Shown piece by piece: positions 51,676 to 58,809 of a stretch of DNA of 64,000 bases. Position numbers and translations under genes: made by a program. This DNA comes from Massilia sp. H6. GTDB lineage: Bacteria > Pseudomonadota > Gammaproteobacteria > Burkholderiales > Burkholderiaceae_D. Below the pieces are notes generated by a model. That model was given only the letters and a program-made list of their open reading frames with translations, searched no databases and was not told the DNA's origin. Within the stretch, counting starts at the first letter, position 1; each line of letters opens with the position of its first letter. The stretch covers positions 2,232,001-2,296,000 of the forward strand of contig NZ_CP103371.1 in NCBI RefSeq assembly GCF_024802625.1, read 5' to 3'.

Positions 51676-52632
51676 CTAGGGCAGGGCCGGTTGCGGCGCG
51701 CCGGGGCGGCGGTTGGCGACCCCGAAAGGCACGTGTACCATCGGAATGGTACCGCCCGGTCCGGACTGCAGGTGGGTCAGCTGGTCGTCGAAGAAGATAT
51801 GGGGCCGGAAGACCGACAGCACGCGCGCCTTGTCCATCCCGCCCAGGAAAAAGGTTTCGTCGGCCGACACGCCCCAACTGCGCAGCGTGGTGACCACCCG
51901 TTCGTGCGACGGGGCGCTGCGCGCGGTAATGATCGCAATGCGCACGATCCGGCGGTAGCTTGGATCGCGTCGCTGCGCCTGGTCTTCCAGGCGCTGCATC
52001 ATGGCCAGCTTTTGGAACAGGTCAGCCAATGGGCCTGGCTGGTGCGGCCGCGCCATGTGCAATCGTTCGTGCGCATGGAATCCGCTCAGGCCGTCCTGCT
52101 TGAAGACGGTTTCCGATTCGTCGTCGGCCAGCACGCCGTCGAAGTCGAAGGCAACGCGCAGCTCGACGTCGTCCTCGTCGTCCGCGATGCGCGAGGGCAG
52201 CACCAGCCCGGCCGGATAGTCGATGGCGATGGCGCTTTTCACGTCTTCCTCGTGTGCGCTCAGGAACAGCGAAGCATTAAAGGCCGGCAGGTAGGAGTAG
52301 GGCGAGCCACCGTTCATGAAGGCCGCGCGCGAAATATCCAGCCCGTAATGGGCGATCGAGCGCATCACGCGCAGGCCGGTTTCAGGCGAATTGCGCGACA
52401 AGAGCACGACTTCGACCGGCGCCTCTTGCGGGAAGCAGCGGTTGATGTTCAGGAAGCGGCGGATGAACGAAAACGCCACGCCCTTGCCCAGGATAAGGTC
52501 GAGATTGCGCTCCTGGTAGCCGCGGTAGGCATCGGGGCCCTGGTCGATATACACCTGGTGCGATTCGGACAGGTCGAACAGTGCGCTCGAGGCGACCGCG
52601 ATGACCAGTTTCTGCTCGATCTGGAAACCCAT
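51676..52632 (-). CDS. Cytosolic 5'-nucleotidase family protein
   Basis: The 318-residue protein matches the bacterial 5'-nucleotidase family (PF06189 type), with LSRNSPETGLRVM and the HAD-like acidic segment FDFDGVLADDESE. It may dephosphorylate nucleoside monophosphates. Its ATG overlaps the HDOD gene stop (TGATG), so the two are translationally coupled. It is the last gene before the mfd promoter region. Confidence 0.82.
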   Translation of the reverse strand: MGFQIEQKLVIAVASSALFDLSESHQVYIDQGPDAYRGYQERNLDLILGKGVAFSFIRRFLNINRCFPQEAPVEVVLLSRNSPETGLRVMRSIAHYGLDISRAAFMNGGSPYSYLPAFNASLFLSAHEEDVKSAIAIDYPAGLVLPSRIADDEDDVELRVAFDFDGVLADDESETVFKQDGLSGFHAHERLHMARPHQPGPLADLFQKLAMMQRLEDQAQRRDPSYRRIVRIAIITARSAPSHERVVTTLRSWGVSADETFFLGGMDKARVLSVFRPHIFFDDQLTHLQSGPGGTIPMVHVPFGVANRRPGAPQPALP

Positions 52633-53636
52633 CAATCGTCCCCGCTGCGAAGTTTATCGAAGATCTGGCGCTGTTCGGCGCCGAGCGTTGCGGCCAGCGC
52701 CGCGGCGCCCTCGATGCCATTGTCGACCAGCATGCGCAGCTTGGCGAGGCGGTCGCCCCCGTGCAGCGCCCGGGCCAGCGCCAGGGCGTCCGGCTGACCT
52801 GCCTGCATGATTGCCGCCGCCACCGGCGGCGGTAACTCCCACAAGTAGGCGATGCGGGCCGACAGCGTGCGGGCGCTGCCCAGCAGGCCATGGGCAAAAG
52901 CGTCCGAGCGTGGCAGTGCACTGGCGCCAGCAACCTGGTCGACCAGGCGGAAGGCCACGATCAGGCCAACGTTCTGCATCAGCCCCGCGAGATAGGCCTC
53001 GAACGGGTCGGCGCCGAGCGCGGGCGCCGCCATGCCGGCGGCCAGTGCGCATTGTTCCGACTGGGCCCAGAGTTGCGGCGCGACCTGGCGCGCCAGGCGG
53101 CCGGTCTGGGCGCTGATCACGGGGCGAAAGGCCACCCGTGCCAGCAGCATGCGCAGACCGTTCTGGCCCAACAGCATGAGCGCGCCCTCGATCGTGCGTA
53201 CCGGCGCGGTCGGCCGGTAGTACGGGCTGTTTACTTCGCGGATGACCTCCGCGACCAGGGTTACGTCCTGCGACACCTGGCGCGCCAGGTCGGTGGCCGA
53301 CACCCCCTCGTCGCGCAGGCTGCGCAAGAGTTGCGGAATCACGGCAGGCACGCGCGGCACCAGCCCGGCCGCAGCTTCCGGCTGGCGCACGAGACGCTCC
53401 AGCTCATCGAGTATTAATTGCTCCGGCGCTTCGCCTGCGTGGGAAGCCGCGCCGGCAAGCCAGCGATAGTAGACCAGGTCCAGATCGATGGCAGGTGGCG
53501 CCGCATCTGGCTGCGCGCCGGCCTCACCGGTCACGGCCGGCGCGGCCGGCGCGCTCGCGCTGGCTGGCTGTACAGGAGAAGCAGCCTGGCCGGGACGGAA
53601 CGATCCGCCCAGCCAGCGCGTGAACCAATTTTTCAT
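52632..53636 (-). CDS. HDOD-domain signalling protein
   Basis: The 334-residue protein has an N-terminal proline/alanine-rich linker and a C-terminal HDOD domain (about 110-320). HDOD domains are degenerate HD phosphohydrolases usually found in signalling and chemosensory pathways. The ATG at 53636 (MKNWFTRWLGG) is chosen; longer in-frame starts lack a ribosome site. It lies 123 nt downstream of the EAL gene and may share the pyp transcript. Confidence 0.78.
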   Translation of the reverse strand: MKNWFTRWLGGSFRPGQAASPVQPASASAPAAPAVTGEAGAQPDAAPPAIDLDLVYYRWLAGAASHAGEAPEQLILDELERLVRQPEAAAGLVPRVPAVIPQLLRSLRDEGVSATDLARQVSQDVTLVAEVIREVNSPYYRPTAPVRTIEGALMLLGQNGLRMLLARVAFRPVISAQTGRLARQVAPQLWAQSEQCALAAGMAAPALGADPFEAYLAGLMQNVGLIVAFRLVDQVAGASALPRSDAFAHGLLGSARTLSARIAYLWELPPPVAAAIMQAGQPDALALARALHGGDRLAKLRMLVDNGIEGAAALAATLGAEQRQIFDKLRSGDD

Positions 53637-53759: not shown

Positions 53760-55541
53760 TCAGGCCTGCGCGGCCCGGTGGCTGGCCAGCCAGGCCAGCA
53801 AGTCGGGGGCCGCCAGCGGACGGCTGAAGAAATAGCCCTGGCCCTTGCCGCAGCACTGGGCCCGTACCACATCGGCTTGCGACTGGGTTTCGATTCCTTC
53901 GGCCACGGTCTTCATGCCCAGGCTCTGCGCTACCTTGACGGTGGCCTCGATCAGTACCCGGTGATGCTCGCTGGTATCGGCCTGGCTGACGAAGGAGCGG
54001 TCGATTTTGACAGTGTCGACCGGCAGCAGGTGCAGGCTCGAGAGCGACGAATAACCGGTGCCGAAATCGTCGAGCGCGAGTTCGATGCCGAGGGCCTTGA
54101 GCTCATGCAGGCGTTGCTGGATGCCCTGATCCTGGGCAGCCAGGCTTTCTGTTACTTCAAGCTGCAGTTGCCCTGCCGGCATGCCGGTCAGCTCGAGGAT
54201 GCGGCGCACGTTGTCGATCCAGCCGGGCTGGCCCAGCTGGGCGCGCGACAAATTGACTGCGACCAGGCGCGGCGCGTCCTGGCCCAGGCGCGCGCGCCAG
54301 TCCATGAAGTCACGGCAGGAGCGTTCCAGCACGAAGTCGCCCAGCGCGCCAATCAGGCCGCATTCCTCGGCCACCGTGATGAATTCGATCGGCCCCACGA
54401 CACCGCGCAGCGGGTGGCGCCAGCGCACCAGCGCCTCGACCCCGGCCGAGTAGTCGGTGCCGCCATCGGGCAGCAGGCCGACCACCGGCTGGTAGACGAC
54501 GAACAGCTGTTCTTCGGCGATGGCCTGGCGCAGCTCGGCCTCGATGCCAGCGCGCTGCGTGGCGCGTTCGCGCATGGTCGACTCGAACACGAGGTGGCGT
54601 GCACCGCCGGCCCGTTTGGCCTCGGCCATCGCGATGCTGGCGTCGCGCAGGATTTCATCGGCGTCGCGCGCGCTGTCCTGGCCCCAGGCCAGTCCCAGGC
54701 TGGTGCCGCAGACCACTTCGTGTCCCTGCACGCGAAAGGGCAGCGACAGCGAGTCGAGCAGGCGCCCGGCAACGCGCTCGGCATCTTCGCGCGAGCGGAT
54801 GCCGTCCAGCACGACGACGAATTCGTCGCCGCCGACGCGTGCGGCCAGCTGGCCGCTTCCGCCACGGGTGTCGATGCGGTCGCTCGGAGGTCGCAGGGCG
54901 CCACGGATGCGCTCGCCGATCTGCACCAGCAAGGCGTCGCCTGCGGCCTGGCCGAGCGTGTCGTTGATGCGGCGGAAGCGGTCGCAGTTCATGAACAGTA
55001 CGGCAAAGCTGGCGCCCGACGGTTCTGCGCCCGGAGCGGTGCGTGCGATCAGGCGCTCGAGCTGTTCGCGCACCGCCTCGCGGTTGGGCATGCGAGTGAG
55101 CGCATCGGTGCGGGCGGCGCTGCGCAGGCGGCGCGTGAGCGTCTCCTGTTCGCGCTGGACCTCGAGTGTGGCGTCGGCCACCACCGCCATCAAGCGTTCG
55201 CCGTCGAGCTTCATGAGGCTGATCGCCAATACCTGGGGGGCGCCCGCTGCAGTCATTTCCGGCGGCAGGGTGGCGCGCAGGCCCTCGCAAATCACGCCGG
55301 CGCTATCGGTAAAGTCGCGCGCGAGCTGCGCCAACTGGGGTGCGATCGGCGCCAATACCGCGAACAGGTTGTCCAGGCCGCTGTAGTGTCCATCCGCCGT
55401 CGCCAGCGGCATCAACAGGCTCGAGGCCATCGGGTTGAGCATGTCGACGGTGCCGTCGACGCTCAATTGCGCCAGTCCGATCGGAGCCCGGTACAGAAAC
55501 TGCACCAGGGCTTCGTAGGCTTGGCTAGGGTCAGACTGCAA
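53760..55541 (-). CDS. GGDEF-EAL protein with PYP-operon sensor domain
   Basis: The 593-residue protein has an N-terminal sensor domain (about 8-125) similar to that of the upstream gene. A GGDEF domain follows (RVGGDEF, 236-241, with the D/N residues of CDRFRRIND intact), then an EAL domain (EAL at 369-371, VNLS, DDFGTGYSS 491-499, AEGIE 548). No RxxD I-site precedes the GGDEF. Both enzymatic motifs look intact, so it could make or degrade c-di-GMP. The start is TTG at 55541 with GAAGGAGGA upstream; it overlaps the preceding stop. Confidence 0.85.
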   Translation of the reverse strand: MQSDPSQAYEALVQFLYRAPIGLAQLSVDGTVDMLNPMASSLLMPLATADGHYSGLDNLFAVLAPIAPQLAQLARDFTDSAGVICEGLRATLPPEMTAAGAPQVLAISLMKLDGERLMAVVADATLEVQREQETLTRRLRSAARTDALTRMPNREAVREQLERLIARTAPGAEPSGASFAVLFMNCDRFRRINDTLGQAAGDALLVQIGERIRGALRPPSDRIDTRGGSGQLAARVGGDEFVVVLDGIRSREDAERVAGRLLDSLSLPFRVQGHEVVCGTSLGLAWGQDSARDADEILRDASIAMAEAKRAGGARHLVFESTMRERATQRAGIEAELRQAIAEEQLFVVYQPVVGLLPDGGTDYSAGVEALVRWRHPLRGVVGPIEFITVAEECGLIGALGDFVLERSCRDFMDWRARLGQDAPRLVAVNLSRAQLGQPGWIDNVRRILELTGMPAGQLQLEVTESLAAQDQGIQQRLHELKALGIELALDDFGTGYSSLSSLHLLPVDTVKIDRSFVSQADTSEHHRVLIEATVKVAQSLGMKTVAEGIETQSQADVVRAQCCGKGQGYFFSRPLAAPDLLAWLASHRAAQA

Positions 55542-56913
55542 GACTTCCTCCTTCAGGTTGCGGCAGGTTGGCCGGGTTGGCCGCCAGCGCCGGATGCCAG
55601 CGTTCGACCCGATTGCCGCCGGCGCGCGCGGCAGCGCGCAAGGCCTGGTCGGCGCGCCTGAGCAGCGCGTCGATTCCGCCCGGCGCGCCTTCGCCGGGTT
55701 CGAAACAGGCGACGCCGGCGCTGACGGTATAGCGGGTCGGACTGCCTTCGACGTCCAGCGCTTGCGAGGCCACCGCGGCGCGCAGGCGCTCGGCCTCCAA
55801 CACCGCGCGCTTGAGGTCGGTGGACGGCAGCAGCACGGCAAACTGCTCGCCCCCGATGCGCGCCACGAGGTCGACCGCGCGGAAGGTCTCGGACAGGATC
55901 GCGGCCAGGTGCTGCAATACCTGATCGGTGCCGGCCTGGCCGTGGCGGTCGTGGATGCCCTCGACGAGGTCGGCGTTAATGCTGATGACGGAGGTGGCGC
56001 GCGGCGCTGACTGGCCGCGCGCGAGTTCTACTCCGGCCGCGTCGACAAAGGCGCGGCGCTCGGCCAGGCCGCTCAGGTAGTCGCTGAAAATATCGCCCCG
56101 GCGCCGTTCGCTCGCTTCGCGCTTGTCGCTGATGTCGCGCAGGATCAGGCAATAGGCTGGACCGTCGGCCTCGCGCTCCGGCAGCGGGGCGATCAGGGCG
56201 CTGCCCCAGAATCTGCTGCCATCGGCGCGCAGGCACTCGCCTTCGTCCAGGCTCCAGCCATCGCCGTCGGCATTGCCCAGGCGCTCAAGCAGGCGCTCGG
56301 GCGTCAGCGCGCCGGGCGGATAGAAGATCGAACAGGGTTGCCCCACCGCTTCACTGCCATGACCGGTGACGCGTCCGATACTCGGATTCCATTTGGTGAT
56401 GGCACCACGAACATCGATTTCAGCCAGCGCGTAATCGGTAATCCCGGTGAGAATGGCATCGCGCCAGGCGTCGTTCTGGCGCAGCTGGCGCTCGCGGCGT
56501 ACTTGCACGGTGATGTCGTCGATGACCGCCATCAGGCGTTGATCGTCGAGTTTGAGCAAGGTAATCGCCAGGATTTGCGGTGCGTCCTTGGCCGACGGGC
56601 CCGGGTTCAGGCGCACGCGCATGCCGTCGCAGATCTTGCCGCTCGGGCGGTCGAAGCTGGCGCACAGGTGCCGCAGCTCCGGTGCGATGCTTTCCAGCGC
56701 GGTAAACAGGTTATCGAGCCCGCCGTCACGCGATAGCGGCATCAGCAGCTGGGCCGAAATCGGGTTCATCATGGCGATGACGCCATCGAGGTCGGCCTGC
56801 ACCAAGCCCACCGGTGCCAGGTAGAGAAATTGAATCAGCGCTTCGTGCTCGGCGCGCAGCTGCGCTGTCTCATCGACCAAGTCGTGTTCCGAACCGTCCA
56901 GGTGGGAGCGCAT
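55531..56913 (-). CDS. PAS-GGDEF protein with degenerate active site and intact I-site
   Basis: The 460-residue protein has an N-terminal sensor domain like that of the downstream GGDEF-EAL protein, then a PAS domain (about 150-260) and a GGDEF domain. The active-site motif is GGEQF (354-358). The metal Asp is kept (Asp315), but the guanine-contact Asn is His321 and the FK pair is VE. The I-site RxxD is present (RAVD 345-348). It is predicted to be a c-di-GMP-binding regulator rather than an active cyclase. It starts 5 nt after the PYP stop. Confidence 0.85.
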   Translation of the reverse strand: MRSHLDGSEHDLVDETAQLRAEHEALIQFLYLAPVGLVQADLDGVIAMMNPISAQLLMPLSRDGGLDNLFTALESIAPELRHLCASFDRPSGKICDGMRVRLNPGPSAKDAPQILAITLLKLDDQRLMAVIDDITVQVRRERQLRQNDAWRDAILTGITDYALAEIDVRGAITKWNPSIGRVTGHGSEAVGQPCSIFYPPGALTPERLLERLGNADGDGWSLDEGECLRADGSRFWGSALIAPLPEREADGPAYCLILRDISDKREASERRRGDIFSDYLSGLAERRAFVDAAGVELARGQSAPRATSVISINADLVEGIHDRHGQAGTDQVLQHLAAILSETFRAVDLVARIGGEQFAVLLPSTDLKRAVLEAERLRAAVASQALDVEGSPTRYTVSAGVACFEPGEGAPGGIDALLRRADQALRAAARAGGNRVERWHPALAANPANLPQPEGGSLAV

Positions 56914-56918
56914 GGGGC

Positions 56919-57311
56919 TTAGCGCACTTGGCGCTGCACGAGTACGTAGCTGGTGCTGCTGCCGGGCGCGGCCAGCAAGCGCAGCTTGACTTTCACCGGG
57001 CGCATGCGCAGGGTCAGCACGTAATCGATGGTGTCGTCCAGCGTCGCGCCATCGTCGGCGGCGTCTTCGAAGCGCTGCGCGACCATGAAATTATTCAGGC
57101 AGGGCGCGACATTGGTAAACAAGGGCTGGCCCAGCACACGTTGCGGCGAGAGCCCCGCGGCCTCCGATTCAAAGGCGTTATAACGCTGAACATTGGTGTC
57201 GGCATCGAAGCCAATCACGCCAAAATCGAGCTGATCGAGCTGTTCAGATGTGCATTTTTCGAGCTGCAGGGCCAGGTCCGCGGCCGAAAACGACGTGGTC
57301 GCTGGATTCAT
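56919..57311 (-). CDS. pyp: Photoactive yellow protein homologue (blue-light sensor)
   Basis: The 130-residue PAS protein aligns along its length with the 125-residue PYP of Halorhodospira. The chromophore cysteine (Cys71 = Cys69, in NVAPC) is conserved, as are Tyr44 (= Tyr42) and Glu48 (= Glu46). In PYP the cysteine binds p-coumaric acid through a thioester. Thr50 and Arg52 equivalents are Ala52 and Leu54, so the spectrum or photocycle may differ. The start at 57311 has GGAG 7 nt upstream. First gene of an operon with two c-di-GMP proteins. Confidence 0.88.
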   Translation of the reverse strand: MNPATTSFSAADLALQLEKCTSEQLDQLDFGVIGFDADTNVQRYNAFESEAAGLSPQRVLGQPLFTNVAPCLNNFMVAQRFEDAADDGATLDDTIDYVLTLRMRPVKVKLRLLAAPGSSTSYVLVQRQVR

Positions 57312-57348
57312 TGCAAGCTCCAGTGAGATTGTTGATTTGAGGAAATTG

Positions 57349-57377
57349 ATGATGGCACAGTGCATGCTCCTTGTCAA
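57349..57377 (-). promoter_or_regulatory. Sigma-70-type promoter of the pyp operon
   Basis: A perfect TTGACA (-35, 57377-57372), 17-nt spacer and CATCAT (-10, 57354-57349) on the minus strand lead to a 30-nt leader with the GGAG ribosome site. Confidence 0.65.
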
Positions 57378-57489
57378 TAAAAGGGCCGGGTACTGACACG
57401 GTGCATTGTCTGTTTTCACATTGCCAGCCAGACCAGCGACCCAGTTAGCAGGCCGGGGCAGGGTGCACGCGCGTCAGCCTTCGACTACC

Positions 57490-58809
57490 ATGTGCGCCAT
57501 GATACCAATTACCGAGATCAATGCACTGGATGCCATTCCTGCGCCGTGGTGGCGCGACCGTGCTACTTTGCTACGGGTGGTCGCCGACCTGCTGGCCGCC
57601 GAGCTGGCCTTGATGCGGCCCGGCCTGCCCCGCCGCCGCATGCCCTGGTCCGCCGATCTCGACCTGGCCTCCGATCTCGGTGCAGATTCGCTCGAGCTGC
57701 TGGGACTGGCCAGCGTCTTGGAGCAGATGCTCTCGATCGGCTGCATTGGCCAGGAGCGCGTGCTGGCGCATCCGCGCCTGGGGGCCTGGGCCGACGCCGT
57801 TGCGGCCGGGCTCGAGGGTGGGGCCGAGCTTGTCAATTTCCGCACTTCCGGCAGTTCGGGGGCGCCCAAGACCTGTCGCCATGCGCTCGCCGAGTTATGG
57901 CAGGAGAGCGTCGCACTGGCGCGCCTGTTTCCCGGGACGCGCCGCATATTGAGTATGGTGCCGTCGCACCATATTTACGGTTTTCTATTTTCGGTCTTGC
58001 TGCCGCGTGCACTCGGACTGGAACCCGGGCTCGACGGCGACATCGAGTTGGCCACCGTGGCCGACCTGCGCGCCGAGTCGCCCGGGGCCGTGGCCCGGCA
58101 GCTGCGCCCGGGAGACCTGGTGATCGGCCATCCCGATTTCTGGCGTGCCTTTGCGGCGGCAGCCACCCACCTGCCCGACGACGTGGTGGGCGTGAGCTCG
58201 ACCGCGCCGTGCCCGGCCGACGTGGCCAACGCGGTCGCGGCGGCGGGCGTCGCGCGCCTGGTTCAGGTGTATGGCAGTTCGGAGACGGCTGGCGTCGGCT
58301 GGCGCGACAGCCCGGACGAGGATTACCGATTGTTTCCCTACTGGGAAGCCGGAGCGGAGCCCAAACGAGCAGCGGGCGCCTCGCCGGGCCCTGCCGTACT
58401 GACGCGCCGCTGCGCCGACGGCAGCCGCCGCTCTTATCCGCTGCAGGACAGCCTGGTCTGGTCCACGCCCGGGCGCTTTCGTCCAGCCGGCCGGATCGAT
58501 CATGCGGTGCAGGTGGGCGGCACCAATGTCTACCCGGGCTATGTGGCAGAGGTGCTGGGCATGCATCCGCAGGTCGCGCAAGCGGCCGTGCGCCTGATGC
58601 GTGCGGACGAAGGCCAGCGGCTGAAGGCCTTTGTGGTGACGCATGCCAGCTCGACGGGCGACATGGCCAGCCTGCGTGCCGGACTGGGCGAATGGATGGC
58701 CCAGCGGCTGTCCACGCCCGAATGCCCGGCAGCGTATTCGTTTGGCCCAGCGCTGCCGCGCCAGGCCAACGGCAAGCTGTGCGACTGGATCATCGAGGCC
58801 TGGGAATAA
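57490..58809 (+). CDS. 4-coumarate:CoA ligase of the PYP-activation family
   Basis: The 439-residue adenylate-forming enzyme has A3 motif TSGSSGAPK (about 119-127), A5 YGSSETAGVGWRD, A7/A8 GRIDHAVQVGGTNVYPG and A10 LPRQANGKL. Divergent from pyp, it fits ligases that convert p-coumaric acid to p-coumaroyl-CoA, the donor for the PYP chromophore. The N-terminal segment (about 24-108) has DLGADSLELLG (Ser about 67), the phosphopantetheine-type motif of carrier proteins. No good ribosome site is visible; the ATG at 57499 is an alternative start. Confidence 0.82.
   Translation: MCAMIPITEINALDAIPAPWWRDRATLLRVVADLLAAELALMRPGLPRRRMPWSADLDLASDLGADSLELLGLASVLEQMLSIGCIGQERVLAHPRLGAWADAVAAGLEGGAELVNFRTSGSSGAPKTCRHALAELWQESVALARLFPGTRRILSMVPSHHIYGFLFSVLLPRALGLEPGLDGDIELATVADLRAESPGAVARQLRPGDLVIGHPDFWRAFAAAATHLPDDVVGVSSTAPCPADVANAVAAAGVARLVQVYGSSETAGVGWRDSPDEDYRLFPYWEAGAEPKRAAGASPGPAVLTRRCADGSRRSYPLQDSLVWSTPGRFRPAGRIDHAVQVGGTNVYPGYVAEVLGMHPQVAQAAVRLMRADEGQRLKAFVVTHASSTGDMASLRAGLGEWMAQRLSTPECPAAYSFGPALPRQANGKLCDWIIEAWE

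Follow-up and report, generated by a model that had tools for sequence, protein, structure and literature searches.

A photoactive yellow protein locus of Massilia sp. H6 with an eroded cyclase, a conserved EAL protein and a ligase bearing a predicted carrier-like domain

Genes at the locus

Photoactive yellow protein (PYP) is among the best-studied photoreceptors. The present analysis concerns a pyp locus in a stretch of 64,000 nucleotides from Massilia sp. H6 (contig NZ_CP103371.1, positions 2,232,001 to 2,296,000, called the window below), which is part of the main contig of a 4.5-Mb genome of the Massilia group. The original prediction had described a self-contained light-sensing module, in which an operon of a PYP homologue and paired cyclic di-GMP (c-di-GMP) proteins lies beside a divergent chromophore-activating ligase. 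All four genes are found at the places it gave, while its interpretation stands only in part. The genes are as follows.

56919..57311, minus strand: gene of a PYP-family protein, 130 residues (PDB and profile matches)
55531..56913, minus strand: relative of diguanylate cyclases, 460 residues, predicted to be non-catalytic, with a shared N-terminal domain, a PAS S-box and a degenerate GGDEF domain
53760..55541, minus strand: GGDEF-EAL protein, 593 residues, TTG start at 55541, a probable c-di-GMP phosphodiesterase
57499..58809, plus strand: divergent PYP-type 4-coumarate ligase, 436 residues, with an acyl-carrier-protein-like domain and an adenylating (ANL) core

The three minus-strand genes form a tight operon, as had been proposed. 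There is a 5-nt gap between pyp and the second gene, which runs from an ATG at 56913 to 55531. The third gene, with its TTG start behind a GGAGG, overlaps the second by 11 nt and not by 10. The predicted domains are also there, PAS S-box (residues 160-270) and GGDEF in the second product, GGDEF and EAL in the third. The most likely start of the ligase is the ATG at 57499, with pyp 187 bases away in divergent orientation, and the ligase adjoins pyp both in the window and in most relatives of the genus.

Is the 130-residue protein a PYP? It matches solved PYP structures with a best E-value of 2.9e-17, and the 33 matches of the PDB search all belong to PYP itself or to relatives, among them Ppr and FAST. 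The chromophore cysteine is present as the equivalent of Cys69, together with those of Tyr42, Asn43 and Glu46, whereas Thr50 and Arg52 are replaced by Ala and Leu. PYP was searched for in 62 genomes of the genus, of which 53 were positive, the window included, and the four kept residues are found in all 53. Against the NCBIfam equivalog TIGR02373 the protein scores 82.2 bits, below the curated cut-off of 143.05, so that it is not filed as an equivalog of the Halorhodospira halophila PYP; according to PMC9664959, that model was built on only four seed PYPs. The same paper takes the conserved Cys69 as the criterion of the family. Under this definition the window protein is, judged from its residues, a PYP-family member, with Tyr42 and Glu46 as chromophore contacts. 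PMC9664959 also states that PYP-family proteins are often misnamed phosphonate transporter, and such names were met in this analysis as well.

The eroded cyclase and the conserved EAL protein

The domains of the two c-di-GMP-type proteins are located as follows.

56464..56856, minus strand: shared N-terminal domain of the 460-residue protein
55594..56091, minus strand: degenerate GGDEF domain of the 460-residue protein, with changes including D313N, K318E, N321H and E357Q
55152..55541, minus strand: N-terminal domain of the EAL protein, a homologue of the one in the 460-residue protein (hhalign)
54603..55112, minus strand: GGDEF domain of the EAL protein, with its signature conserved but Asn in place of the first metal Asp (52 of 52 scorable genus rows)
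53817..54539, minus strand: EAL domain with the examined motifs intact (EALVRW, VNLS, EVTES, DDFGTGYSSL, KIDRSF, AEGIE, QGY)

Positions that are at least 97% identical in 42 genus relatives were taken as near-invariant. In the 460-residue protein of the window, all 54 such positions in the N-terminal domain are unchanged, while the PAS domain has changes at 3 of 40 and the GGDEF domain at 13 of 68. The latter has lost, among others, its metal Asp, its signature, and the Lys and Asn within the FKxxND stretch. An active diguanylate cyclase would be expected to hold the metal Asp, the substrate-binding Asn and GG(D/E)EF, which we take to be the positions of D313, N321 and E357, and the window protein has lost all three. 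The catalytic positions are canonical in the 42 relatives, and in 23 of 23 members of an overlapping relative set. The GGDEF domain of the window is 66% identical to those of ten close relatives, compared with 89% among these relatives themselves. The ratio of nonsynonymous to synonymous substitution rates (dN/dS, Nei-Gojobori method) is 0.43-0.54 for this domain in four pairs with the window versus 0.18-0.23 in four pairs between relatives. The cyclase thus looks catalytically dead in the window. It is unlikely that a sequencing artefact lies behind the erosion, because the reading frame runs uninterrupted over all 460 codons and the changes cluster in a single domain.

This bears on the c-di-GMP proteins as they were first read, namely as a working cyclase and phosphodiesterase which light would balance against each other in a self-sufficient locus. 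The gene order and overlap fit that scenario, and so do the 42 relatives with a canonical cyclase. However, the catalytic residues of the first GGDEF domain are lost in the window, and no tyrosine ammonia-lyase was found in the genome (see below). We consider a working, self-sufficient pair improbable for this locus.

What then would be the output? The third protein holds the features expected of an EAL phosphodiesterase, since its motifs are those which we take to be the EAL signature, the metal ligands and the loop-6 motif. Up to 6 kb on each side of pyp were taken for the 52 other PYP-positive genomes. The frameshifted G038 is among them; it does not enter the cyclase counts, but its pieces are kept in the PYP and EAL rows. 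The EAL gene stands beside pyp in 53 of 53 genomes, downstream in all 52 others (as two frames in G038), and its motifs are intact in every row, that of G038 being the frameshifted gene. In 42 of the 52 other genomes, pyp and the EAL gene are separated by a complete cyclase gene whose residues are canonical. Of the 52 scorable genomes, 10 have a cyclase arm that is dead or absent. Four of them, all from one clade, lack the GGDEF domain and retain the two N-terminal domains directly ahead of the EAL gene; in one genome just the first N-terminal domain is left, again directly ahead of it; and four genomes have no such cyclase gene. Parsimony on a quick tree of the EAL proteins, with G038 left out, gives at least 5 changes for loss of the cyclase arm, and the EAL gene is never lost.

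The intact EAL motifs (53/53), set against a cyclase arm that is gone or dead in 10/52, suggest that the breakdown arm is the core of the system. In the window itself, the likely output is a change in c-di-GMP breakdown, because the GGDEF residues are lost and the EAL motifs are intact. We infer EAL activity as the conserved output, and a role of the remaining N-terminal domains as a docking partner. The N-terminal domains of the two proteins (about 125 residues) are 51% identical, with an hhalign E-value of 2.1e-52, and share the conserved motif EALxQFLYxAPxGL...LLMPL...NLF. No Pfam match was found in the window copy, one of 15 members gave a weak PAS_4 match (E 0.047), and the domain profile had no PDB match up to E 1. 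A PYP-like nature of this domain was considered and rejected on these results, together with hhalign probabilities of 0.1 and 0.4%. Repeated cyclase loss beside an EAL gene that is always kept suggests that, within the genus, this PYP branch acts mainly through phosphodiesterase control, and makes the EAL protein a defined candidate for its signalling partner.

The arrangement had been thought to look unusual, which does not hold in view of the constant EAL gene in the genus and of loci elsewhere. In Caballeronia sp. M1242 the same four genes, for ligase, PYP, cyclase and cyclase/phosphodiesterase, stand in a row, and plasmids of Methylobacterium, Sphingomonas and Rhizobium hold PYP, cyclase, ligase and EAL protein. 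Among 113 PYP operons in PMC12826048, 29 are listed with GGDEF and 22 with EAL genes.

Some further features surround these genes. A sigma-70-like promoter match lies ahead of pyp.

57349..57377, minus strand: TTGACA, 17 nt, CATCAT with TG before it (consensus match only)

One such match was found ahead of pyp where 0.2 were expected. Downstream of the EAL gene there is an HDOD-domain gene on the same strand (52632-53636), with a gap of about 120 bases if its start is at 53636; it is found downstream again in many relatives, at larger distance. A 5'-nucleotidase gene also lies downstream of the EAL gene, and a PBP1A gene beyond the ligase.

Chromophore loading and the source of p-coumarate

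The divergent ligase consists of these parts.

57532..57831, plus strand: acyl-carrier-protein-like domain (PDB sequence-profile hits, AlphaFold, PDB fold matches)
57688..57690, plus strand: codon of the Ser in the DSL motif, where helix II begins; predicted site of phosphopantetheine attachment (Asp-Ser conservation)
57832..58809, plus strand: adenylating core, beginning just before the P-loop (FRTSGSSGAPK) and having the conserved C-terminal Lys

The best NCBIfam match of the ligase is TIGR02372, over nearly the full model (positions 4-385 of 386), and its gene stands beside pyp, which bears out the assignment to the PYP-activation type. The score of 310.9 bits is below the cut-off of 334.7, and the ligase is described here as PYP-type and not as a TIGR02372 equivalog. 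A TIGR02372 search of 398 genomes of the phylum gave no match over the cut-off. Among the 30 best loci of that search, the match extends over the carrier region in three (G000, G012, G436) and begins at model position 89 or later in the remaining 27.

How firm is the carrier-like domain? Its AlphaFold model has a pLDDT of 92 and matches PDB folds; in this predicted form it has the helix bundle of an acyl carrier protein, with the Ser of DSL at the start of helix II. To Pfam PF00550 (PP-binding) the window domain scores 19.7 bits, below the gathering cut-off of 20.8, and 24 of 26 members match at E up to 1, the best at 3.5e-5. The Asp-Ser of the attachment motif is found in 239 of 239 relatives, the window's own included; these are the best 120 and the next 119 of two lists of 2303 and 2223 matches, and are biased to close relatives. 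It is also found in 8 of 8 plasmid loci from six genera, which were fetched from a set of 10 plasmid records containing most of the ligase. These alignments are made up of ligases other than those of H. halophila and Rhodobacter. A phosphopantetheinyl transferase family match (PF01648) is present in the genome.

We raise the possibility that the PYP-type ligase attaches p-coumarate to a phosphopantetheine arm of its own and then passes the thioester straight on to the cysteine of the photoreceptor, in which case free p-coumaroyl-CoA would not be the physiological intermediate in the family. This is a tentative proposal, with a somewhat less than even chance of being right. It competes with the published account; PMC12826048 describes chromophore attachment solely as a reaction with the free CoA thioester. 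In the rival reading the ligase would make ordinary free p-coumaroyl-CoA, and the carrier-like domain might be a scaffold in place of the missing N-terminal subdomain. CoA-ligase activity is ascribed to PYP ligases in PMC12826048, and the flexirubin ligase FlxY yields 4-coumaroyl-CoA in vitro (PMC3992019); the window domain is moreover diverged and under the Pfam cut-off. On the other hand, the Asp-Ser in all listed relatives and the Ser at the start of helix II are hard to explain by a scaffold, and L102, a TIGR02372 relative without the Ser, also has a decayed P-loop, as judged by eye. Loading through free CoA is a serious contender, yet falls short of being the probable one. As for L102 itself, it is a distant relative (in G436), and no PYP match was found among its fetched open reading frames.

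Where does the p-coumarate come from? A PF00221 profile search of the genome found one lyase, which sits in the hut operon and scores 671.8 bits against the HutH cut-off of 539.15; no tyrosine ammonia-lyase was found. With HutH as the sole PF00221 lyase, the module can hardly be called self-contained. This missing lyase, the degenerate first GGDEF domain and the carrier-like domain of the ligase had all been absent from the original prediction. In the other genus genomes HutH was assigned by score. Of the 53 PYP-positive genomes, 27 have a further PF00221 match, which is only partial in G014 and G057, versus 0 of 9 PYP-negative genomes (p 0.004, uncorrected for kinship). One of these further lyases, L106, scores 387 against the HutH cut-off of 539, and its PDB matches include tyrosine aminomutase and phenylalanine ammonia-lyase, but also histidine ammonia-lyases. 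The further lyases are at most putative p-coumarate producers. The remaining 26 of 53 have no match beyond the HutH-scoring one (one of them, 87% complete, has no PF00221 match at all); a PYP-type ligase is retained by 19 of these 26.

These numbers leave room for a scenario in which the PYP of this strain is photoactive only with plant- or soil-derived p-coumarate, and would be a joint sensor of blue light and p-coumarate. It fits the finding of HutH alone in this genome and the 19 genomes above that keep the ligase, and p-coumarate uptake is considered in PMC12826048. Against it, the distribution of the further lyases suggests that an own supply is common if they do make p-coumarate, and a side activity of HutH or another route is possible. 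We regard joint sensing as possible but, on balance, doubtful.

Eight of the 62 genomes have a second, classical-type PYP, 31-34% identical to the window PYP. It is followed directly by its own ligase, with DSL in all six that were fetched (L100, L101, L105, L107, L108, L109), and in some an aromatic lyase also stands beside it, the lyase match being in pieces in G020 and G057. In G014 and G057 the only ligase is the one beside the second PYP.

Then is p-coumarate needed everywhere? No ligase match at E 1e-40 was found in 10 of 53 PYP-positive genomes (G028 keeps a fragment), and seven (G005, G010, G019, G021, G054, G059, G061) have neither a PYP-type ligase nor a further lyase. Ligase loss and further lyase show no linkage across the genus (median p 1). 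The seven genomes still keep Tyr42, Glu46 and Cys69. Their retained Cys would fit a protein that senses something else, e.g. redox state via the Cys, and no longer needs p-coumarate. However, all 53 genomes also retain the chromophore-serving residues Tyr42 and Glu46, and the ligase gene is open in the window, so another signal seems quite unlikely. The residue after Cys69 is Met in 11 of 12 genomes without a pyp-linked ligase versus 4 of 41 with one (L111-L162), and Met is also usual there in more distant relatives of the clade. In a comparison of ligase loss with this residue (Leu or Met), 5 of 7 independent pairs go in the same direction and none in the opposite (p 0.06), and no linkage is claimed.

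Taken together, we lean slightly towards a scenario in which blue light changes c-di-GMP breakdown, with the pseudo-cyclase as adaptor and the carrier-fused ligase loading p-coumarate onto PYP. p-Coumarate, from outside or from a side reaction, would be adenylated by the ligase, be taken over by the predicted phosphopantetheine arm of the ligase's carrier domain, and then be transferred to the cysteine of PYP. Light-changed PYP might then contact the homologous N-terminal domains of both partner proteins, and EAL activity would go up or down.

In Alpha- and Betaproteobacteria, PYP-linked ligases have a carrier-like domain whose predicted attachment Ser is conserved, which offers a simple test of another loading route for PYP, and a simple assay could distinguish the free-CoA from the carrier route.

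Comparison with known photoreceptor and carrier systems

In having a single-domain PYP that adjoins c-di-GMP proteins, the locus resembles the clade C PYPs of PMC9664959, the operons of PMC12826048 and the biofilm control of Idiomarina loihiensis. As in the published GGDEF/EAL operons, many of which have pCL nearby, a ligase is at hand; unlike in those, the cyclase here is apparently without catalytic activity, the likely output being the intact EAL protein. Term searches of the main texts of PMC9664959 and PMC12826048 found neither Massilia nor Oxalobacter named. In the 113 operons of the latter paper, TAL is listed in 7 and pCL in 42. The pyp-pCL-TAL operon of H. halophila is similar in that PYP adjoins a PYP-type ligase, but differs in its tyrosine ammonia-lyase, which was not found in the window's genome, and in the Thr50 and Arg52 that the window PYP has not kept. 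Within the genus, that operon has its nearer counterpart in the second, classical-type PYP found in eight genomes.

The window ligase, for its part, is like the TIGR02372 PYP-type 4-coumarate--CoA ligase in its P-loop and C-terminal Lys; model positions 4-91 match the carrier-like domain, which the name of TIGR02372 omits. Among the titles and abstract openings listed for PYP, phosphopantetheine, ligase and Massilia, no report of a carrier domain in a PYP ligase was found. The pairing of an adenylating core with a phosphopantetheine carrier fold recalls the adenylation and peptidyl carrier protein (A-PCP) modules of nonribosomal peptide synthetases (NRPS), and the fatty acyl-AMP ligases, which reportedly work with holo-acyl carrier protein. 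The PYP-type ligase would differ from these carrier-coupled enzymes in two respects. Its carrier-like domain comes first, where the core would have an N-terminal subdomain of its own, and the cysteine of a photoreceptor is proposed as the acceptor.

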